NCBI GenBank assembly: GCA_963971425.1
Contig: OZ020522.1
Coordinates: 5,616,168 to 5,680,167, forward strand
DNA length: 64,000 bases
Direction: 5' to 3'
Source: Bryoerythrophyllum caledonicum
Taxonomy: Eukaryota; Streptophyta; Bryopsida; Pottiales; Pottiaceae
Both the position numbers and the translations under genes were made by a program. The notes beneath the pieces were generated by a model. It did not search any database. It was not told the origin of the DNA and worked only from the letters and a program-made list of their open reading frames with translations. Shown piece after piece: positions 3,966 to 48,100 of the stretch (its first letter is position 1; every line of letters begins with the position of its first letter).

Positions 3966-4722
3966 GTGCAAACCCGACCAACGCGTAGGGTAGAACGGTT
4001 TTCATCCATTACATGCCCCATATGTACCACCACAGACCTGGACACATGGCTACATGTATTCCTTAAATGTCAAAACCACCACATACACTCCCAAATTGTC
4101 AAAAGGCATAACAAATCCGTGTGGGAAATCTGGAAGTTAATTGTATCCTTTGACAAATCGTGTTGCTTTATACTCATAATGCCGGAACCTTCAACAACAA
4201 CCCTCAAGAAAACACAATTTCCTATTGGCTACTTCCATGCACATGTGAAGTTGAAAGATGCCATTGTAATGCAAGATTTAAACCATGCATACTAGATGTG
4301 TTAGAAGACTACCATATAATGACCCCCCACCAAAAGAAGAAGAAGAAGAACGCCGGTCTCCGTAGGAGGATCCCCCCACCATACCATATAGATCCATACC
4401 TCATCATCCAATTTATCGAATTCAAATATTGCCATGACACATTCTCACCAGAAGCAATCGAAACAAAATAGGTAAATACCAACCACTTATCAATGACATT
4501 ACAACTCTATGATGGAAGGTAGACCCCCTTATTGTTAACATTGGTGCTGCCAAAGCTACCACTTTTATTCCATCAATGAAAAGCCTCAAACAAATATTTA
4601 ATACCTCCACTCACCCAATTAAGAAGACATTCAATAATATCAACACCATTGCTATCTAACACGCAATGTCCACACTACTACACAAACAAAAACTTGAAAA
4701 TAACCAACCTCTCCTTGAATTA
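3966..4722 (+). pseudogene. LINE (non-LTR retrotransposon) ORF2 C-terminal remnant
   Basis: Shifting plus-strand frames read like the C-terminal part of a plant non-LTR retrotransposon reverse transcriptase. A zinc-knuckle-like pattern, CPIC then a histidine and C with RHN further on, lies at about 4010-4110. It is followed by a Cys-rich block (4230-4270) and, after in-frame stops, a tail with KYQPLI, GAAKATTFIPS and LLHKQKLEN. The order of these blocks matches LINE C-termini I know. Several stops and frame changes show it is dead, and the 5' part is missing. An Lys-rich segment with a GC-rich hairpin interrupts it at 4331-4375. Confidence 0.65.
4331..4375 (+). repeat. Recurrent Lys/Arg-coding hairpin motif, copy 1
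   Basis: A run of AAG codons leads into a GC-rich imperfect hairpin (GCCGGTCTCC then GGAGGA). In frame it reads KKKNAGLRRR. Related motifs occur at 12631-12660 and 35159-35195. Its position inside the LINE remnant suggests a mobile-element origin. Confidence 0.5.
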
Positions 4723-4842
4723 TAAAGCACCCCTTAAAACCTTCCTTAATCCACACTCTCACCTTTGTCGTTCAATCTTTGGAGTTGATTCGACACTATG
4801 CCCTTCCATACCCTCCATTTCTACCTTTTTAGCTCTTCCAGC

Positions 4843-5138
4843 TTAACCCTTTAAGGTCAAGCGGCCATTTTGGGGTCATTTTGGCACAACAATCTCGATT
4901 GCAATTGCTCTAGGCCACCTCCATTGAAGACTTAAAACTACAATAAAGAGGTGGACAAAGATGGGCATCATTGAGACCAAGGCCATGAAAATCAGTGCAA
5001 GCATCGACAAGCTAGAGTGATTTCCTTAAAGTAGGGTTGCGATGAGATGTACCTTGTGCGTAGATGGTATTCTTTGTGATCTAGAACACTTGTAGAATCT
5101 TGTTGGCTAGAAGAGCTCATCGGCTTTAAAGGGTTAAA
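4843..5138. mobile_element. TTAA-flanked inverted-repeat element, 288-bp interior
   Basis: TTAA borders at 4843-4846 and 5135-5138. The left end starts CCCTTTAAGG and the right end is CTTTAAAGGG, giving 8-9 matching terminal bases. No open frame of note. Its interior differs from R1, so it is a separate subfamily with the same type of end. Confidence 0.65.
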
Positions 5139-18879: not shown

Positions 18880-19174
18880 CACTTGGTATCTATGTTCAAA
18901 TCATACAAGGTCTAAATTCTATATCATCATGTTCTACATGATGTCAACTGCTTATATTCCAATTTTTAGGGTAGGAGACAAATGTAGCATATTTGCAAAA
19001 ATTATGCAAGAAGCAATGGTTCAAAAAATGCCAATAAACAATTTTATTTTTGAAAACTCAATTCATTATAGAAAGAAAGTCCACGAGGTCAAAGCTAAGT
19101 TCATTTCGCATCTTGCAATATTATAAGCGTTCTAAAATATCTAAACTTAGGTGGAAAAGACAGTTTTTTGGTAC
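18880..19174 (-). repeat. R1-type repeat, left part, host of the retrotransposon
   Basis: Diverged inverted R1 sequence runs up to TTTTTTGGTAC at 19174 and resumes at 26600 with GTACCGTACTTAACAATGTGTG. Intact copies such as 13730-13760 have these two pieces joined, so the Ty3/Gypsy element inserted into this R1 copy. Confidence 0.65.
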
Positions 19175-19449
19175 TGATAAGACGTTTTTTGTGTTGTCTG
19201 TATGAAATTACTAAATAATCGTAGTGAAAACTCGGTCATAGGTATAGACCACTAGCATACAAGGCATAAGAAATCAGTTACCATCACTTTGACAGTTAAG
19301 TGTAGACCAAGAAGAAAAGCAATTGTTTCTGAAAGCAAGGAACGAGGGGAGGATAAAAGCAGGGACGACCATGTAACTCGTAGGGTTTTCATGATTAATA
19401 TACGTGTATTCGATTAACAGTCAAGAACAATTGATTTTGTCTCGTTTCA
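19175..19449 (+). repeat. 5' LTR (275 bp)
   Basis: Begins TGATAAGACG and ends GTCTCGTTTCA. It matches the 3' LTR over its full length with about 14 substitutions, mostly transitions. Promoter elements were not resolved. Confidence 0.93.
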
Positions 19450-19480
19450 TCTCGTTCCGTTGCCGGGACCGCGGAGAATT
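19450..19480 (+). other. Possible tRNA primer-binding site
   Basis: Shortly after the 5' LTR the sequence CCGTTGCCGGGA matches part of the complement of a plant tRNA-Asp 3' end, a primer known from some plant Gypsy elements. The first bases do not match well, so this is weak. Confidence 0.35.
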
Positions 19481-20272
19481 TGTCGAAGGGTGAGAGCCGG
19501 GAGTAAGTGACAACCAATGGAGCGGTGAGCGTGGATTCTTAAAAGTGGAGTTTTTGAGAAATGGAACTTGGTTTTCGTCTTATAAAGCGGTGACAATTAC
19601 CGACAATTAGTGAGAGCGGCGACTGTACAGCAGCTGAAGTCGATGTTGGACGTCATCCAAGTGTCGGTGGTGAATTAGCGGTCCTATAAAGGTCGTGCAA
19701 GCTCTGCACCTGCATGTTGGAGGAATCCAAACTGAAGTACGTTCCAAGCATATTTTCAAAAAAAATAAAAAAATACCGAATGGACTTCACTGCATGCAAC
19801 ACCAATCCTGTGTTGATGATAAAGTACGTTTCATCATGTAATCACGTCATCACCTCGACTTCACTGCATGCGACACCATACAATACAATAATACGGTGAA
19901 ACTGAACAAAAGTTGAATTGAACGTAATAAACTCTTTACACCCCGACGTTTACTCATGAGGCTGAAATATCACTCGCCTCTCGATTCTGGCTTGAGCTCT
20001 CGTCAAACAATGGTAGGCAATGACATACAAATTTTCTGCAGTTGTGTATGAATTGATCTGAACACACACATGCCAGCGTCGATGTGATCCCTACATCAGC
20101 TCTGATGACCTGATCTCCTGTTTATTGATTATGGTGATTGTGAGTTACAGTTCATGAACTGTAGAATCAGCTACAGGTGCTGATACATGTGCAAAACTTC
20201 TTGGTTTCTTCCCAGCAATGCATATCTTGACGTCCCATTGCCTATTGTTCGATTATATTGGTGTTGTGAATT

Positions 20273-20300
20273 GGTATCCGTGGCGCAATGTTAGCGCGTG
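20273..20300 (+). other. tRNA-Trp-like 5' fragment
   Basis: The stretch containing ATCCGTGGCGCAATG and TAGCGCGT closely resembles the first third (acceptor strand and D arm) of plant nuclear tRNA-Trp. The anticodon arm and the rest are absent, so it cannot be a functional tRNA. It directly precedes the extra RNase H domain and may mark a template-switch junction. Confidence 0.55.
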
Positions 20301-20722
20301 AATGTTACTCTTTCAATGCATGCTTGGAAATTAAACTTCGACGGCTCCAGTTCAAAAATTTTGGGATCTGGTGCTGGAGTGATTTTAGAAAGTCCGGCGG
20401 GAGTGAAGGAAGTTTTTCATCAAGATCTGGGGAAACATCTTACTTGTAACCATGTTGAATATGCGGCACTCATTACTGGTTTAGAATTGGCTCGAGAAAG
20501 GAACGTAAAAGTTCTCCAAATCTTCGGCGATTCCAAATCTTCGGCGATTCCAAATTAGTATGTAATCAGGTAGGAGGAAACTGGGAGGTACGATCACCAA
20601 ACCTGATTCCCTATTTCAAAACTGTTGAGAAATTCATCCAAAGTTTTTCCTCGATAAGTATCAAGCACGTACCCCAAAGCCAAAATCAACATGCAGAAGC
20701 AGCAGCGAAGAAAAATTATTAA
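20298..20722 (+). pseudogene. Extra RNase H domain upstream of gag
   Basis: The frame opens with WKLNFDGSSSK and SGAGVILESPAG, then VEYAALITGLELA and FGDSK. This is the pattern of the plant-type RNase HI domain (D, E, D catalytic residues) found in some Gypsy lineages and as host genes. A 17-bp direct duplication (20518-20534 and 20535-20551) shifts the frame to a stop at 20558. Beyond it, the original frame continues with NQVGGNWEVRSPNL and SIKHVPQSQNQHAEAAAKK up to about 20722. Its position before gag is unusual; in Tat-type elements the second RNase H lies after reverse transcriptase. Confidence 0.75.
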
Positions 20723-20786
20723 AGTCACATCGTCATGCATCTTCTTCATGCCCTGGTTCTTCTTCATCGTCTCTGCAAATTAACAT

Positions 20787-21227
20787 CATGAAGCAGATTC
20801 GACCAACAACAAACGCAGTAGCTCACATGAAAACATCCTTACTAAGCTGCAGGTAGGAAAATTGCTTTCGGAATTACTGCGCGATGGTGGAGAGCAGGGC
20901 AGATGGCAAACAAAACTTTGCAGAGTGGCGTTGGAGCTTATTGCGATTGTTACCAATGCAGGGCGTGCGAACACTGTAGCAACAAGTGAGGCGGCGGCAC
21001 CAACTCTGCGCCGTATTGAAAGAGCGGCTATTGCTGCAGCTACGCCTATAAGTTATCACCCCAGGGAGCTGTTACAACTTATTCACGAGCACCTGATTGG
21101 ATCAGGGCTTCCAAATGCAGCTGCTGCATTGATCAGAGAAGCAAGCTTGAAGCCTTTACCGTCCCCTTCGCGGACCAGCAACGCATCTTCTTTGTCACCG
21201 AGCTCCAGCTTTACTGCCAACCATTGA
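20787..21227 (+). pseudogene. Captured DCAF1 (DDB1-CUL4-associated factor 1) fragment with LisH motif
   Basis: An uninterrupted frame reads KLLSELLRDGGEQGRW, ALELIAIVTNAGRA, PTLRRIERAAIAAATPI and then a LisH motif (ELLQLIHEHL, SGLPNAAAALI). This matches the mid-region of plant DCAF1, a substrate receptor of CUL4-DDB1 ubiquitin ligases. Nothing of the usual large protein flanks it, and it sits inside a retrotransposon, so it is a transduced host fragment. No intron-like break is visible over about 440 bp, which would fit capture from spliced RNA if the host gene has introns here. The frame ends soon after the LisH region at 21227. Confidence 0.8.
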
Positions 21228-21347
21228 GACAAATTGCAGATTTAAGAGCAGTGTGAAGCTGTGACTCGCTTACTAGTCCTGTTCTGCTTCTCAGAAACAA
21301 CCTGGAACCGTCGCTGCAGTGAACGCCCAAATATTGCTAAGATAGTG

Positions 21348-21410
21348 GAGTTTTATGGATGTTTAGCAGAGATTTATGGACGTGTGGCAGAGCTTTATAG
21401 ACGAGTGGAA
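21348..21410 (+). repeat. Three 21-nt tandem repeats coding heptads
   Basis: Units at 21348, 21369 and 21390 follow GAG-TTTATGGA-type sequence; translated they give EFYGCLA, EIYGRVA and ELYRRVE. The seven-residue period resembles a short coiled coil. It lies in the leader of the retrotransposon before gag. Confidence 0.65.
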
Positions 21411-21586
21411 ATTACACATATTTCATACCATGCAGCACAATTAAGTAAGTCTTTATAAAATAAATACGTATGCATAGTAGATATAATTTAGAAAGAGAGG
21501 AGTCCTTGACTACACATTTTGAAGCGACGTTGTGGACACATTTTTTGCATTGACGTGAGCAAGAGTCTCGTCAAGACTATCAAAAG

Positions 21587-22150
21587 TTGAAAGTACAACG
21601 AACAAATCGTATCATCATGGTTTCCATACCAGTATTCACGGGAAAAGAGAAAGAGGATCCAGAGCGTTTCTTGAAACAATTTCAGAGAGCTTGCATGGCG
21701 AACGGAGATCGAAACAAACAAAGTTGGTTAGAGTTGCTACCCATTCACTTTGACGATACAACGTTGTTTTGGTACGAACGACAGACTCAACAAACCCGGT
21801 CTACATGGGACATACTCACAACGACGCTTATTTCAAAATTTCAAGAGAAAGAGAGCTACCAAACTCTCCTAGGCACTCTCAGCCTGATGCGGCAGCGTGA
21901 AGAGGAGACAATACGTCAATTCAGTGAAAGAGTGAGAGAAATTCAATCCCGAATACAGCGAAGCTTGAGAGTAACCAGTGTTGCACATGATGGAGTAAAA
22001 GTAGGTGATGAAGATCGTACTTCAGCAACCATCTCCAGTATCGATGCTTTAGCATTAAGAAGTTTTATTGGCGGTTTGAAACCCACAATACAGGAAATAG
22101 TTGCCTGGAAGGAGCCTAGCACTTCTGAAACGGCCCTTGCGCTTGCGTAG
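21587..22150 (+). pseudogene. Retrotransposon gag
   Basis: A 187-codon frame has the typical plant Gypsy capsid pattern: a FTGKEKEDPERFLKQF start, a WLELLPIHF and LFWYERQ segment, and TIRQFSERVREI. A single in-frame TAG (22148-22150) separates it from the rest of the same frame, which continues to the CCHC knuckle. The TAG could be a decayed Gln codon; a programmed readthrough is possible but unsupported. Confidence 0.85.
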
Positions 22151-22216: not shown

Positions 22217-23977
22217 GTGACCCGGTTGGTACAGACAACTCTTGCTATAACTGAAGCTATCAGCGACTTATCCGCCAAGAATAATGACATTTCTCATCTT
22301 GTTTCAGAAATGAGAGATTTAAAGTTATTCCTGATACAAGGTCAGAGTTCGTTGCGCTCGAAAAGCCCAGTTGCAGACGATAGGCCAAACACCAACAAGA
22401 ACGTCCAATTTGTTACATGCCATAACTGCGGAAGGAAAGGTCATTATCGGTCGGATTGCCCGGACTTGGATAAAACCCCAGCCGTTTCTACAGCTAAGTT
22501 GGCCAAGGTAAATCTGCTACAAGTAATGCTCTCGTCACGAGTTCAGGAATTGGATCTTGAAGTAATGATGGCTAAAAGAAGTCGGCCACACAAAGAACCT
22601 GAGGTGCATACGAAACATAGAGACAAGCGTTTCCGAGTCGACAAACGAGAATCTACCAAGAGACCACGACACAAGATCGGCATCGGTGACTTATTGTTGA
22701 GTGGAGGTCAATCAGAATACTCAATAATCCAAGACTTAGGTAAACGAATGGCAAATATTACTGTTGGTCAATTGGTAGCGCGATGGCCCTCATTACGTCG
22801 CGAATTACGGGAAGGCATTAGTACGAGAAGATGCAAACAAATTGCAGAGGTCAACGTGGCTGAGAAAGCAAGCGGGGGTTTACGGTCGCCGCAGGTGGAA
22901 GCAATGGTTAACGGCTGCGAAGTCAGTGGTTGTCTGATAGACGGTGGCACGACCATTAATGTGATATCAAGTTGGTTCATGAATGCAGCCGGACTTGAGC
23001 CAAACAAACTGTCATCGATACGACTAAAGGTTGCCGATCAAAGATGTGTCCGTTCTTTGGGACAGATAAGCCAAATCCCTGTGATTGTAAATGGAGGTAT
23101 TGTGAAACTTGATTTCCACGTACTTGATATTTCATCAGGAAAGGGCGGATACCCCGTGATTTTGGGCAGACCGTGGCTCAAACAAGTCCGCGCAATTAAT
23201 TATTGGGATAAAGGCAAAATGAAGATTGGTACCTCGCACAATCGCGTCAGTATACGTGTAATACCGGATGCAAGTGCAAGTTTGTTGGAAACCAGCTCAT
23301 CGGAAGATTGTTCAAGTTCTGAGGGACAGGAAAACTCGTCATGGGAGTCCGAACCTGACGATAATTCAAGCGTCAAGAGTGACGATTCAGAAGCTGAGCT
23401 ATACGCTTTAGATGTCCTTCCACAAGTTGTTAGCGATTCAATGCAATTCATTGACGACCAAGATGTTGAACAAACTGGGCAAAATGAATTATTGAATAAA
23501 GTCAAATTTGGGCCAATATTAACAATTCAAGAAAGAACAGATTTAGAAGGATTGGTGTTGGAATATTCTGACCTTTTTGTAACTAGACATTGCGATTTAC
23601 CTCCAATTATTGTGGATGAGCATCGAATCAAATTAACCGAAGCTGCTCGACCAGTAAGATCGAAACAAAAGCGCATGGCTTCTGAAAAGATGAGCGTATT
23701 AAGAGCGGAGTTGAATCGTTTACTGGAAGGAGGTTTTATCACAGAATTAAAAAATATCGAGTGGGTCTCGCCAGTTGTAATCGTGCCCAAGAAAGGAGGA
23801 AAGTGGCAAGTGTGCGTAAACTACAAAGCATTAGATAAGTTTACGAAGAAGGATCGGCAGCCATTACCTCATATAGATGAACTTTTAGACGAGGTAGCGG
23901 GGCATGAAATGGTTACTTTTTGTAATGGCTACGCCGGATATCATCAAGTGAAGGTGCACAAAGATAACATCAAGTGA
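22217..23977 (+). pseudogene. Nucleocapsid knuckle, protease and N-terminal reverse transcriptase
   Basis: In the same frame as gag. The CCHC zinc knuckle CHNCGRKGHYRSDC lies at about 22419-22460. The aspartic protease has the active-site motif CLIDGGTT (DGG instead of the commoner DSG or DTG, as in some plant Gypsy elements) at about 22934. The reverse transcriptase starts near 23640 and runs through WVSPVVIVPKKGGKWQVCVN. It ends prematurely where a 26-bp segment is duplicated (23945-23970, 23971-23996), which shifts the frame. Confidence 0.88.
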
Positions 23978-24900
23978 AGGTGCACAAAGATAACATCTTA
24001 TATACTACCTTCACTACTTTGTGGGGAACGTATGCTTATTTAAGAATGCCTTTCGGTTTGTGTAATGCCGGAGGCACTTTTCAAAGAGTGCAGCTTAAAT
24101 TTTTTGGTCCTTACATCGGCCAATTCATCCGCATTTATCTTGACGATTTTGCCATATATGGCGACCGAATCAAACACGTGCAACAAGTCAGAGCTGCCTT
24201 TCAAAAATTGCGTGAACATGGATGCTTTTTATCTCCTGAAAAATGCAGAGTCGGTTTCGAGGAAGGTCCGCTTCTCAAGCATATAATGTTTGCTGGAGGC
24301 ATGCGAGTGGATCCAGATAAAGTGAAACGAATAAAAGAGATGACTCAACCCGTCTCACGCGAACAAGTCGCAAAATTGTGGGGAGCCACGATTTATCACA
24401 ATTGATTTATACCAAATTTGGCAAGTATTGGGCGCCCCATAAGCGCACTAATCAGCAAAGCGTCTCCCTTCATATGAGGCGACTAGTGTGAGCAAGCATT
24501 CTCATACATTAAAGAAAGATTGGCGAGCGATCCAATAGTCAAAAATCCCATATGGGACAAACAATTCATTGTAAGTCCATCCGCCACTAAATATGCAGTC
24601 GCGGCAGTACTACTTCAAAATGACGAGGCTGGAAGGGCGCACCCTATTTATTACGCGAGCAAGCTATTGACCTTGTGTGAGTAAAAGTACGCTCCTCTCG
24701 AAAAGCTAGGAGTAACTTTGTTATTCGCGTGTACAAAATTCAAGCATTATTTGCTCTCGAGCAACCAATCAATTTCAATACAAAGTGATGTGGAAGGTTT
24801 GAAGCAGTTGTTGCAACAAAAAGATCCTAAAGGAAGAAGTGCACGATTAATGGCCGCTTTGTAGAACTACGACCTGGAGGTGAAAGCTGTCAAAGGCACG
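23974..24900 (+). pseudogene. Reverse transcriptase C-terminal part and RNase H
   Basis: The frame resumes after the 26-bp duplication with MPFGLCNAGGTFQR and the catalytic YLDD box (about 24136). The connection and RNase H region follow in the same frame but with stops at 24403, 24475, 24484, 24682 and 24862. Recognisable pieces include AVAAVLLQNDEAG, PIYYASK and FKHYL, typical of Ty3-type RNase H. Confidence 0.85.
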
Positions 24901-26289
24901 CGGAATTCTCACGCAAGGCTACTCCTCGAACTGGGAACTCGACCACAGGAAGACCTCGGGGCTTTGTCAGATGATGTCGAGTGTTTCGTTTTGGCCACAG
25001 AATCCGAACCGGACACTTTTGGTTATGAAGAAGTAAAGTTGTACCTTAGAACATTGAGTTTCCCCGAAGGCTCCGAATCAAGACAAAGACAAAAAATTTG
25101 AAGGCAGAGTCTGACATATTCACTCGTTGGAGAGGACCACTATAAGAAAGGCAAGGACGGTGTCTTAAGGCGAGCTGTGACGGTTGAAGAATCGAGAGAA
25201 GTACTTAAACAATGTCACGAGGGTTTATGCGGAGGACACTTTTCTACCGAGACAACTGTAAAGAAGATACTAGTACAAGCTGGTTTTTTCTGGCCTACTA
25301 TTTTTCATGATAGTAATGAATATTGTCGCAGTTGTTATCAGTGCCAAGATTACGGCAAAAGAATCATACCCTACGCAGAATTGCAACCAATATATCCAAC
25401 TGGAGTTTTTGAGAAATGGGGAGTGGATTTCGTCGGGCCCCTGCTTGTTACGGCCAAACGAAATGACTATTTGATTGTGGCCACGGATTATCTTTCAAAA
25501 TGGGCAGAAGCAGCACCTGTAAAAAGATGCAACCAGAAAACGGCAGCGGATTTCATTTATAATCAAGTTATTTGCCGATATGGTTGTCCGTTGGAAATAG
25601 TCACGGACCGCGGGACTCATTTAGTCAACGAGTTACTCTTGACGCTCATGCAAAAGTTGTCGGTCAAGCATTGACGCGCCAACCCTTACTATCCTCAAGC
25701 AAACGGTCTTGTTAAGAAGACGAACGAGATTTTGACTGGGATCATCGGAAAAGTCGTTTTGGAAAAGAGGCGGGAGTGGGATCTGCACGTGAACGAAGCC
25801 TTGTGGGCCTATCGAACTGCACACAAGAGCGCTAGAGGATATACGCCATTCCAGTTGGCATATGGTTTAGAAGCCACAACACCTATCGAGCTGGAATTAG
25901 CTTCACTACGAACAATAGTCAAGCACGGGATGGACGATGCAGGGTCACTAAAGGCCCGCGTTCTTATGCTAGAGAAATTAGACGAGTCACGACGACAAGC
26001 TTTATTCCATTTCGAAACATTACAAAATCGAAGGAAAGCGAAGCACGATGCAGCCAAGAAAACGGTAAAGTTCAACCGTGGCGACTTAATTTTGATGATC
26101 GATAATTGGTTAATCAAGGAGCATGGGCAAAAATTCAAGCCCCGATGGTTGGGGCCTTATGTAATTCATAATCGCTACTCCAACGGTTCTTATCAATTAA
26201 GCACACCAAGTGGTGAAGTTGTGCCAAAGTTATACAACGGTTCAAAATTAAAACTATATAAGCACAAAGAAGATCTTAGACAGCCTTGA
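24901..26289 (+). pseudogene. Integrase
   Basis: Same frame, with stops at 25099 and 25672. The HHCC zinc finger (QCHEGLCGGHF, CRSCYQC) begins near 25210. The catalytic core has VDFVG and IVTDRG for the two aspartates. At the third acidic position, in NGLVKKTNE, the usual Glu is replaced by Lys, so the core could not be active even without the stops. The C-terminal region (KFKPRWLGPYVI, NGSKLKLYK) is chromodomain-less and resembles the GPF/Y-type end of plant Gypsy integrases. Confidence 0.88.
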
Positions 26290-26324: not shown

Positions 26325-26599
26325 TGATAGGACGTTTTTTGTGTTGTCTGTATGAAATTACAAAATAATTGTAGTGAAAACTCGGTCATAGGTATAGACC
26401 ACTAGCATACAAGGCATAAGAAATCAGTTACCATCACTTTGACAGTTAAGTGTAGACCAAGAAGAAAAGCAACCGTTCCTGAAAGCAAGGAACCAGGGGA
26501 GGATAAAAGCAAGGACGACCATGTAACTCACATGGTTTTCATGATTAATATACGTGTATTCGATTAACAATCAAGAGCAATTGGTTTTGTCTCGTTTCA
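26325..26599 (+). repeat. 3' LTR (275 bp)
   Basis: Starts TGATAGGACG, ends GTCTCGTTTCA, preceded by a purine-rich tract (GGGAAGGAGA, about 26316-26324) that fits the polypurine primer for plus-strand synthesis. It matches the 5' LTR end to end. Confidence 0.93.
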
Positions 26600-26639
26600 G
26601 TACCGTACTTAACAATGTGTGAAATTGTTCTGACTTACA

Positions 26640-32851: not shown

Positions 32852-32862
32852 ATGACGAGTAG
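32824..32862 (+). other. Upstream ORF overlapping the PTOX start
   Basis: A 12-codon frame (M-R-V-C-R-R-R then S-H-H-D-E) begins 28 bases before the PTOX ATG, in a different frame, and ends after it. If the PTOX mRNA includes 32824, ribosomes starting here would bypass the main start, unless leaky scanning occurs. The upstream ATG context is weaker than the ACCATG of PTOX. Confidence 0.45.
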
Positions 32863-34120
32863 CCCGGCAATCGGCCTGCTGCGCGGCGAATCACTCGTCC
32901 TCCGCGCGCCCAGAATTCCTCAAACCCATTTAGAATGCAGCAGGCGCGTATCGCGAACTCGCTTGAGCCTCTCAACTCACCTACCTGCGCTCGCAGTTCC
33001 ACAACGGAGGAGAAGAACATTTGCGCGTAGAGTTCTGGCAGAGGAGCGGGAAGTTGAGACGGAAGAAGCAGCGCCCGGAGTGAGTGACCCTGAAGAAGCC
33101 GCCGAGGGGCTGGAGAAGTGGGTGATCCGCGCCGAAAAGGCCTTCAACCAGCTGGCCACCGACGTCGTGATCCAAGTGCTGGACGTCTTCTACAAGGACC
33201 GCGACTACGCGCGCTTCTACGTGCTGGAGACGATCGCGCGCGTGCCCTACTTCGCGTTCGTCTCGGTCCTCCACATGTACGAGAGCTTCGGGTGGTGGCG
33301 GCGCGCGGACTACCTCAAGGTGCACTTCGCCGAGAGCTGGAACGAGCTGCACCACCTGCTCACCATGGAGGCCCTGGGGGGCGACGAGCGCTGGGCCGAC
33401 CGCTTCCTGGCGCAGCACATCGCCGTGGCCTACTACTTCCTCACCGTCGCCATGTACCTCCTCAGCCCGCGCATGGCGTACCACTTCTCAGAATGCGTCG
33501 AAAAGCACGCCTTCCACACCTACGACGTGTTCATCAAGGCGCATTCCGAGGATCTCAAGCTCCTCCCCGCGCCCGAAGTCGCCGTCAAATACTACACCGA
33601 GGGCGACCTCTACCTCTTCGACGAGTTCCAAACCGGGCGAACGCCGAACTCGCGCAGGCCCAAGGTACAACATCTCGTTGAATGCGCATCCTGTCATTCG
33701 CTCATTTTGCTGCTTGCTCATCTTGTTGTTTTCTTATCTTGTTGTTTGCTCATCTTGTTGTTTTCTTATCTTGTTGTTTGCTCGTCTTGTTGTTTTCTTA
33801 TCTTGTTGTTTGCTCATTTTGCTGCTTGCTCGTCTTGTTGTTTTCTTATCTTGTTGTTTGCTCGTTTTGTTCAGGTGGAGAATCTGTATGACGTGTTTTG
33901 TAATATTCGTGAGGACGAGGCGGAGCATTGCAAGACTATGTTGGCGTGTCAGACGCGGGGGAACTTGCGGTCGCCGCATAACCCTGTTGTTGTGCCCTTG
34001 AAGGATTCGCCGAGTGCGGAGTGCGCGGGGATTATCGAGTGTGCGTTGACGGCGAGCTCGTTCGTGGAGCGCAAGCGGAAGAATGTCGTGGATGTGGACT
34101 TGGATCGGCTTCCGAGATAG
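32852..34120 (+). CDS. PTOX: Plastid terminal oxidase (plastoquinol oxidase)
   Basis: Exons 32852-33664 and 33875-34120, 352 residues. It oxidises plastoquinol and reduces oxygen to water in plastids, supporting carotenoid synthesis and chlororespiration; it is the IMMUTANS family, related to mitochondrial alternative oxidase. The first 70 or so residues are Ser/Arg-rich, fitting a transit peptide. The di-iron ligand motifs are present: E126 in LETIARVP, E165 and H168 in NELHH, and E286 with H289 in EDEAEH. The family segment KYYTEGDLYLFDEFQ is well conserved. Length fits the family, but there is only one intron where Arabidopsis has several. The 210-bp intron is a multiple of three and contains no stop. 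The start has a good context and the following sequence fits a transit peptide. Confidence 0.95.
   Translation: MTSSPAIGLLRGESLVLRAPRIPQTHLECSRRVSRTRLSLSTHLPALAVPQRRRRTFARRVLAEEREVETEEAAPGVSDPEEAAEGLEKWVIRAEKAFNQLATDVVIQVLDVFYKDRDYARFYVLETIARVPYFAFVSVLHMYESFGWWRRADYLKVHFAESWNELHHLLTMEALGGDERWADRFLAQHIAVAYYFLTVAMYLLSPRMAYHFSECVEKHAFHTYDVFIKAHSEDLKLLPAPEVAVKYYTEGDLYLFDEFQTGRTPNSRRPKVQHLVECASCHSLILLLAHLVVFLSCCLLILLFSYLVVCSSCCFLILLFAHFAACSSCCFLILLFARFVQVENLYDVFCNIREDEAEHCKTMLACQTRGNLRSPHNPVVVPLKDSPSAECAGIIECALTASSFVERKRKNVVDVDLDRLPR
33680..33872 (+). repeat. Minisatellite filling the PTOX intron
   Basis: About six cycles of alternating TTGCTCATCTTGTTG and TTTTCTTATCTTGTTG words, reaching the AG of the 3' splice site. 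If retained in the mRNA it would encode a Leu/Val/Cys-rich hydrophobic stretch in frame. Confidence 0.85.
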
Positions 34121-45139: not shown

Positions 45140-48100
45140 TTGGATGAGTCGGAGAGGGACGCGACCTCGGGCTCTATGGATGTGGAGCGCGAGGGAGCGT
45201 CAGCAGGAGCAGCGGCGGTACCGACGCCGCCCGGATCGCTGGCGTCATCGCCGGATAGGGACAGGGAGGTGGTGTTGAAGACGGCGGCGAGGAGATCGTA
45301 TTCGGAGGGGGGAGTTGGTGAGCCGGCGTCGTCGTTGTTTGGGTCACTGACGTTTCCGCTGAAGGGAGAGAGGGCGGAGGAGAGAGGGCGCGTGCGGAGG
45401 CGCAGGAGCGAGTCGTCGGTGCCGGCGCTCGAGCGCGATGAGCTGCCGCCGTCGGCCGTGGCGCCGGACAAGTGCAGTTTCGCGTTGGACGATCTGGCGG
45501 TGTTCCGCGCCGGGAGCTCGCAGATCTCGGCGAATTCGCCGGTGTACTCGTCGTTCCAGCACCCGACGCCTGCGCTAGAGGCGCCGTCCGTGGCGGAGTC
45601 GCTGCTCCCGCCGTCGCGCGCGTCTTCGCTGGAGGACATTCACTTCGAGGAGGTCGCGGCTCCTCCGGCGCTCGTCCAGGAGGTGAGTTTGTTCGATAAT
45701 CCCTTGACGGCCACGAGCACGCCGCTGTCCTCGCCGCTACCGAATAATTCCACCGCGTTTGGCCATCCGCCGGAATCGCCACCGCCGTTCGCGCTTCCGT
45801 CGTCCGCGGCCTCGCCGCGCCACTACATCGCCTCGGATTCCGACAACGCAGCATCGTCTTTCTTCACGCCGGAGAGCTCCGGCAGTTTCGTCTCCAGCGG
45901 TGGTGGAGGCAGCTCCTCCTTCTTCTCTGCGCCCGCGGGCACCAATGCGCCCGCGCCGTCGCCGGAGCCGCCGCGACGCAGCTCCGCGTCGGAGAGGAAG
46001 CCGACGACGACGCGCCCCGTCGAGCCTGCTGGAGTTTCGCTCTCGCCGGGCTCGTCTGGGCACCCGCGCAGCTGCGACGTCTACATTGGCGTGTTTGGGC
46101 GTGAGCCGCTGCTGATCCGGTACGCGAAATGGTTGCACGCGGAGCTGGAGGCGCACGGCGTTGCGTGCTTCTCAGCGGATCGGTCGCTGTACGGTGACCA
46201 ACACAGCCACGACATTGCCCGCGCGATCATCCACTCGGCCGTGTTCGGTGTTGTACTCGTTGCGCGCAAGTCGTTCAGGAATCCGTACACGATCGAGGAG
46301 CTGACCATCTTTCTGGACCGGAAGAACCTGGTGCCGGTGTTCTTCGATGTGGCGCCACCTGACTGCCTGGTACGCGACATTGTGGAGAGGCAGGGGGAGA
46401 TCTGGGAGATTGACGGCGGGGAGCTTTGGAAGGTGTATATGGGCGAGGAGAAGGGGTGGTCGGCCGCCGTGAAGGGGTTGCTTACGGTGGAGGAGTGCCG
46501 AGTGGAGGCATACAAGGGCAACTGGCGTGAGAGCATTCAGCGAGTGGTGGGCTTGGTGGGAGCGAAGCTGGGAAGGAGGAGCGCGGCGACGGAGCCGGGC
46601 AAGGCGCAGGAGCTGCCGTGGCCGCGGAATGTGTACTTCGCGGGGAGGGAGAAGGAGCTGAAAATGCTGGAGAAGGTGTTGTTTGTGGAGGGGAGCGCGA
46701 GCGCGGGGGTGGTGCAAGCGTCGCGGCGGAGCGACGCTTCCAGCAAGGCGGAGACGGAGGATGTGGAGTCGCGGGCGTCGAATTACGATGGTGAGAACCA
46801 GGAGGAGCTGAATCTGAATGCAGCCTGGAATGCGCAGACGGGGTCGGGGATGGGGAAGGTGGTGGGGTTACGGGGGCGGCCGCGGCTCGACAAGCGCCGC
46901 GACTCGGCCGATCGGAAGCGGGAGAGTGACAAGACCAAGTATACGCACTCGTGCATTGTGACGGGGATTCCAGGGATCGGAAAGTCGGAGCTGGCGCTGG
47001 AGTATGCGTACCGGCACTCGCAGAAGTACAAGATGGTGCTGTGGGTGGGCGGGGAGGCGCGTTATTTGCGACAGAACTACCTGAATTTGTCGACTCTCCT
47101 GGGCGTGAATGTGGGCTCGGAGACGCAGCCGCCCGGGGCTCGCATGCGGACGTTCGAGGAGCAGGAGAGCGGGGCCGTGCAGCGGATCCGGTACGAGCTC
47201 CAGAAGGACATACCATACCTCCTCATCATCGACAATCTGGACACGGAGCGTGACTCGTTGAATGTGCGCGAGCTCTCGGAGCTGCTGCCGCGAGCCGGTA
47301 GCGCGACGCACGTCGTGATCACCACTCGCCTCCCGCGCGTCATGCATTTGGACTCCATTGAACTGTCGTACTTGTCCAGCTTCGAGGCGCTCACGTTAAT
47401 GCGCGATGGGAAGCGGTCCGAGCGCTCGTTCTCTGTGCAGCAGATCGACAAATTCAAGGAGTTCGAAGACAAGCTGCGGCGCCTGCCGTTTGGGCTCGCC
47501 ATCGTGGGCCGACTCATCAACGAGTTCAACATGAAGCCGTCGGAGGTTCTGGCGAAGATGGGCACCATCGACACCAAGCGAAACAGTTCTGCTATTGAGA
47601 GAGACGACGTGGTGCTGCGCAGTAACCCGTTCCTGGTCAAGCTTCTGGACGTCTGCTTCAACCTCATGGGCGGGGCGAGCGGCGCCAACAGCCTGGCCGT
47701 GCGAATGGCCTTCGTTGGCGGATGGTTCGGCCCCACGGCCTGCCCCCTCTCGCTCCTCGCCTTGGCCGCCAAGAAGCTCCAAAAGGAGATGGGCGGCTTA
47801 CAGATCCGAACCGTGTGCGGCGCGACCATGAAGCTCAAAGGCCGCCTCTCCCACGCCAAGGCCAACACCGAGTCGGACGCCAGAGACGTGCTCACCCGCC
47901 TCGGCCTTGCACGCGCGTCGACTAAGCAGGAGTGCCTCTCCTTCCCGGACATCATCCAGGTGAGCCTGCCCTGCCACATCTATACCCCTTGAAGTTCTGC
48001 AGCGACTTAGAACACGAGCGCTCGACGATCCAGAGCATGTTGACTCGTGTCTTCAGAATCGTGCAGAACTTTGGATTTATCTGGTCTGGTGGTTGCAGGT

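Follow-up and report, generated by a model that had tools for sequence, protein, structure and literature searches.

How does a piece of a host gene, DCAF1, come to lie inside a retrotransposon, and does it have any function there? The locus belongs to a window of 64,000 nucleotides, which is the whole stretch of DNA that was analysed (C10:5616168-5680167 of a 437-Mb assembly in 894 contigs), and this window contains a copy of a Ty3/gypsy element with paired LTRs of 275 bp each, TG..CA ends, and a 4-bp GTAC target-site duplication (Table 1). After the 5' LTR come a leader, an extra RNase H ORF, and the DCAF1-bearing open stretch, followed by gag, the zinc knuckle, protease, RT, and integrase; the order of gag, protease, RT, and integrase is clear from Pfam, with the protease, rve, and SH3 matches being below their cut-offs. 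The overall outline of this copy is intact, yet the frames of its RNase H and pol are broken, that of the RNase H ORF by a tandem duplication of 17 bp at 20522/20539. From the comparisons described below, we suggest that the element belongs to a low-copy Ty3/gypsy family in which the spacer between RNase H and gag is very probably a slot that repeatedly receives spliced host RNAs through template switching of the reverse transcriptase.

Table 1. Coordinates of the Ty3/gypsy element copy and of its captured pieces, in positions of the window.
Feature	Position	Strand	Basis or remark
Target-site duplication GTAC, left	19171..19174	.	Read from flanks
5' LTR, TGATA...GTTTCA, 275 bp	19175..19449	+	14 mismatches to 3' LTR
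Leader, from LTR to RNase H ORF	19450..20321	+	Copy alignment; differs among copies
Extra RNase H ORF (RVT_3)	20322..20719	+	Pfam 7.1e-10 and 3.1e-7, two pieces submitted separately
Captured DCAF1 cDNA piece, 331 bp	20833..21163	+	95.8% to host gene
Second captured piece, mTERF-antisense	21158..21201	+	Match to C10:19.026 Mb
Insert end	21202..21218	+	No source found; element resumes at 21219 (AACCATTG)
gag frame (Retrotrans_gag)	21587..22150	+	Pfam 1.3e-8; stop at 22148-22150
Zinc knuckle and aspartic protease	22217..23977	+	Pfam; frame read as also running into RT
RT, second part	23974..24405	+	Pfam RVT_1 1.2e-10
Integrase, zinc-binding part and core	25177..25674	+	Pfam H2C2 1.3e-12; rve 1.2e-7, just below cut-off
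Integrase, C-terminal part	25732..26289	+	Pfam SH3_Tf2-1 2.1e-4, below cut-off
3' LTR	26325..26599	+	LTR pair comparison
Target-site duplication GTAC, right	26600..26603	.	Read from flanks

The open frame in question (20784-21227 including its stop) has 147 codons and no in-frame ATG, and it belongs to DCAF1 by homology through the LisH region. Human DCAF1 was matched by phmmer with E=1.8e-6, and among 170 candidates, 14 proteins were found at E<=1e-3, one of them named DCAF1 and several being single exon-like ORFs; the Pfam LisH model remains below its 21.6-bit cut-off both in the window (17.4 bits) and in the host gene (17.6 bits). The donor gene was located in the window's own genome, on the minus strand at C15:13.92 Mb (L009), where the translated exons encode a LisH region, a WD40-like part, and an acidic tail, a layout that we take to be that of DCAF1. 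At the DNA level, the window piece matches this host gene with E=2.6e-99, and this bears out the preliminary description of the locus, in which an open and intron-free DCAF1 stretch had been placed between the 5' LTR and gag.

The alignment of the insert to the donor contains 14 mismatches, and in addition, 42 bp are absent in frame from the window piece at 20884/20885, between TGGTGG repeats. The same alignment displays directly that the donor's 117-bp GT-AG intron is exactly missing at the window exon junction 20945/20946, and since the piece lacks this intron, its source was evidently a spliced RNA, captured in sense, just as had been supposed beforehand. Eleven genome matches, with eight candidates scored, contained no second host DCAF1 gene, the other places being copies of the element. 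A simple local rearrangement of the unspliced DCAF1 locus, which had been named as the competing explanation, is excluded by the spliced state of the insert together with the presence of the piece in other copies of the element; the donor lies on another contig and has the intron, which the insert lacks.

The insert turned out to be more composite than first described, given that the stretch 20787..21227 had been assigned as a whole to DCAF1 and only its central part (Table 1) comes from this gene, with the remainder being sequence of another locus, sequence without a source, or the element itself. At the position of the window's insert 20836-21218, the element copies L013 and L014 read GAAAACA followed immediately by AACCATTG, and therefore represent the empty site, although they could in principle be clean losses; the flanks 20787-20832 and 21219-21227 both have counterparts in these empty copies. 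At the left border, the trinucleotide ACA is common to the element and the donor, and at the other end, DCAF1 joins a second captured piece through an ACCGTC overlap. This second piece of about 40 bp matches C10:19026146-19026185, a stretch that precedes the first in-frame ATG of a gene identified as mTERF (9.2e-79) by about 100 bp, and lies in the window in antisense to that gene. In the window, the mTERF match covers 42 bp at 86% identity (E 6e-10 when four loci were searched), and in the copy L026 it covers 40 bp at 93% (E 2.5e-7 in a genome-wide search). No source was found for the last 17 bp of the insert (21202-21218).

The copies were listed by means of one flank, window 21250-21660, for which there were at least 22 matches, distributed over at least 21 places. 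The slot that separates RNase H from gag is present in fourteen copies, namely the window and L017-L029, while L033 is an empty-site fragment, L030 is a match without the slot, and five places are divergent (L031/L035, L032, L034, L036, and L037). Between their anchors, the 14 slots are 222-883 bp long (the start of L028 being an estimate), a length that includes spacer belonging to the element itself, about 178 bp of it in the window. L031, one of the divergent copies, has about 40 bp between its RNase H and gag matches, and the RNase H match ends early at the remaining four divergent places. Outside the slot, gag-pol aligns to the window as single stretches of 4659-5071 columns in L010, L011, L012, and L014.

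DCAF1 sequence is present in five of the 14 slot-bearing copies (the window, L017, L018, L026, and L029), and the insert has thus multiplied with the element. Other copies of the element thus do carry the piece, and L026 has a left (5') DCAF1 border identical to that of the window; identical borders do not extend to L017 and L018, which have one derived breakpoint in common and keep only the 3' part of DCAF1, nor to L029, which retains a remnant of 53 bp. As a side observation, the copy at C9:26.0 Mb (L015/L029) is rearranged in gag-pol, with its gag match ending at window 21533, and the L015 leader holds a 130-bp piece matching window 22903-23032.

A gag tree was made with 15 sequences, comprising the window, L017-L028, and two divergent copies, with L029 excluded for its short gag match. 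In this tree, the DCAF1 carriers together with L020, L021, and L022 are set against the Sec61-beta carriers together with L019 and L023. Support is 96-100 for L020-L022, 100 for the two divergent copies, and 37-84 for the other splits, including 64-84 for the placement of L020-L022 among the DCAF1 carriers. Compared with the window, L020, L021, and L022 are only about 64% identical in RNase H yet about 92% identical in gag, and on these grounds the lineages have exchanged sequence near the slot.

The slot does not contain the same host sequence in all copies, and DCAF1 is one among the captured sequences of the family, which number about ten or more. Host-derived sequence is found in 13 of the 14 slots, often as several pieces joined together; in the remaining one, L019, no host source was found. 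Ten donor places were recognised, those of DCAF1, mTERF, an SR-like gene, a HAD hydrolase, Sec61-beta, an amino-acid transporter, a PWWP-linked gene, its neighbouring gene, an LRR-like gene, and an unnamed gene. The mTERF-antisense piece is present in the window and L026, and also in L017 by alignment to the window, and L017 carries besides a 5' leader piece of the SR-like gene, 95% identical to C8:18839150-18839283. The L021 slot was traced to the LRR-like gene (C3:25.577 Mb), the unnamed gene (C12:9.789 Mb), and the HAD hydrolase gene (C6:28.366 Mb, with a paralogue at C9:22.53 Mb); where they align to it, the slots of L020 and L022 are 96% and 82% identical, respectively. The LRR-like part is present also in L029, which therefore has both this piece and the DCAF1 remnant. 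The end and 3' part of Sec61-beta, 92% identical to C9:16.124 Mb, occur in L024 and likewise in L025, L027, and L028, and L025 contains in addition an antisense dynamin piece, identified by Pfam alone (2.7e-10). L023 holds a piece of the amino-acid transporter gene, from C7:579763-580603, and a further piece, 86% identical to C1:7.838 Mb, without a gene name. In the L026 slot, a piece of the PWWP-linked gene is accompanied by a piece of the opposite-strand gene about 2 kb from it; the two pieces occupy L026:946-1288 and come from C1:4051503-4052533 on the plus strand and C1:4054633-4054680 on the minus strand, as if transcripts of one locus had been captured together. Part of the L020-L022 slot matches C6:15141608-15141709 (L048:1501-1602), a site that may lie outside exons and that is found about 1 kb downstream of a frame resembling ferritin.

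Some of these gene names are tentative. The LRR-like label was given from motifs that we take to be characteristic, with Pfam at 0.18, below the cut-off, and the SR-like and ABC-like labels are likewise presumed from motifs, as Pfam gave nothing in the stretches submitted. The PWWP label comes from a downstream frame at the locus, which scored 24.4 against a cut-off of 25.6 and is without a gene model.

Intron removal is seen in six donors. The donor GT-AG introns missing in the slot are one for DCAF1, two for the HAD hydrolase, two for the LRR-like gene, one for the gene at C12:9.789 Mb, and one for the PWWP-linked gene, and the transporter is counted by the spacing of its matches, given that its four adjoining matches in the slot are spaced in the genome by gaps of 88, 147, and 279 bp, corresponding to three putative introns. 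The Sec61-beta piece spans no intron, and the SR-like piece likewise contains none that could be tested.

We suggest that these pieces would have entered during reverse transcription. The RT working on packaged element RNA would use a few matching bases to jump to a host mRNA in the same package, copy part of it, sometimes switch to another RNA, and then return to the element RNA, after which the chimeric cDNA would integrate and multiply along with the element; inserts in the spacer would survive since gag-pol is untouched there. Such serial template switching onto host mRNAs seems to fit the observations best, because it would leave sense, spliced, truncated, and joined pieces, with the joins sharing a few bases (here ACA at one and ACCGTC at another), without duplication at the known empty site, and with subsequent multiplication of the inserts with the element. 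The mTERF piece and, according to Pfam, the dynamin piece are in antisense, and a sense mRNA therefore need not be the source in every case. Pieces that are spliced and overlap slightly where they join would be equally expected if the host sequences had entered as DNA, that is, if LINE-made processed pseudogenes or cDNA fragments had been inserted into the spacer or patched into it by break repair and had then spread, and the nested pieces, with the HAD hydrolase piece inside that of the C12 gene, do fit repeated insertion. We nevertheless consider DNA entry quite unlikely, given that comparison of the window with the empty sites of L013 and L014 revealed neither a duplication nor poly(A) at the DCAF1 insert, so that the poly(A) and target-site duplication of a LINE-made processed pseudogene are both missing there, and given that several independent hits on one spacer would be needed in a family of few copies (at least 21 places).

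If template switching is accepted as the route, the clustering of captures in the slot is most simply understood as survival, with inserts in gag-pol being lost. The slot may instead be an evolved cargo bay or a switching hotspot, due for example to a pause or packaging structure, and thus more than a tolerant spacer, and the exchange between lineages, which also took place near the slot according to L020-L022, would agree with this; we regard it as unlikely, however, since selection removing gag-pol inserts leads one to expect clustering anyway and since the leader varies as well. The slot may not be unique, as the leader before the RNase H ORF varies among copies and may hold captures too. 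One leader stretch of 41 bp, window 19715-19755, is 100% identical to C11:11723317-11723357 and is possibly another captured piece; Pfam gave no match above the cut-off for ten frames, of which eight came from leaders and two from the L023 and L019 slots. More tentatively, the RT complex of this family might be unusually jumpy, perhaps by means of the RNase H in its separate ORF, and the element might then continually record and shuffle host mRNAs, with captured transcripts collecting in the gap that precedes gag.

With regard to function, the DCAF1 piece is probably a passenger without a protein role. It had been proposed that a free LisH fragment could act on the host ligase, and the open frame of 147 codons, together with a dN/dS of 0.18 against the host gene (9 synonymous and 5 non-synonymous changes, Fisher p 0.002), might at first seem to speak for a fragment maintained by selection and acting on the host DCAF1 complex. 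However, this dN/dS cannot be assigned to the element, because it includes the constrained host branch, with the evolution of the host gene since capture, and because some of the changes are, by eye, common to other copies. The frame lacks an ATG, each of the other four carriers has the DCAF1 part in a truncated or split form, with a stop in L017, and a host-derived frame with 17 random substitutions is still open in 62% of 20,000 simulations. Neither a start codon nor an intact frame in related copies was thus found, selection on the LisH piece is without support, and we hold the proposed action on the host complex to be extremely unlikely.

In transducing retroviruses, reverse transcription links spliced host RNA to an LTR element; unlike in that case, here there are only fragments, without any sign of function, in a plant element. 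In plant LTR elements, passages of one review present the capture of host transcripts as best known from single cases such as maize Bs1, an LTR element containing fragments of three host genes, and also describe switching between unrelated RNAs in one particle (PMC13317346). An insert that matches a host gene, has its intron removed, and lies inside an element is the mark of Bs1-like host-gene transduction, and the window presents all three features. As in Bs1, host-gene fragments are found inside an LTR element; in contrast to what is described for Bs1, the content of the slot varies by copy, about ten donors are involved, six of them spliced, and gag/pol sequence is retained. In cereals, LTR-captured host genes number 672 in rice, 1,343 in sorghum, and 424 in maize (PMC3726574), but they were identified through annotated genes, the main text nowhere uses the word intron, and the passages on these captures describe no shared capture slot.

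Judging by its ORF layout, with a separate RNase H ORF upstream of gag, the element is a candidate member of Tat structure #4, in which an extra RNase H occupies its own ORF upstream of gag and which is reported from four mosses and one Selaginella (PMC10508981). The native RNase H of that structure has degraded catalytic residues; in the window, the frame is interrupted at this domain. The main text of that paper says nothing of host genes inserted in the spacer. One benefit that, according to it, the extra RNase H might bring is more frequent strand transfer (PMC10508981), and the present family could serve to test the role of this RNase H, a question left open there. Among the matches listed from the open-licence literature, there was no published DCAF1 capture or capture slot, and among viral contigs no relatives of the DCAF1 piece or of the 22217-23977 frame were confirmed. 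With host fragments in 13 of 14 slots, from several genes and partly spliced, the family constitutes a natural record of capture events.

Elsewhere in the window, a long open frame at 45140-47992 resembles a TIR-type NB-ARC resistance gene, a label that we presume from its motifs, and a frame at 32852-34120, which we take to be like a plastid terminal or alternative oxidase, is crossed by a 16-bp tandem repeat.
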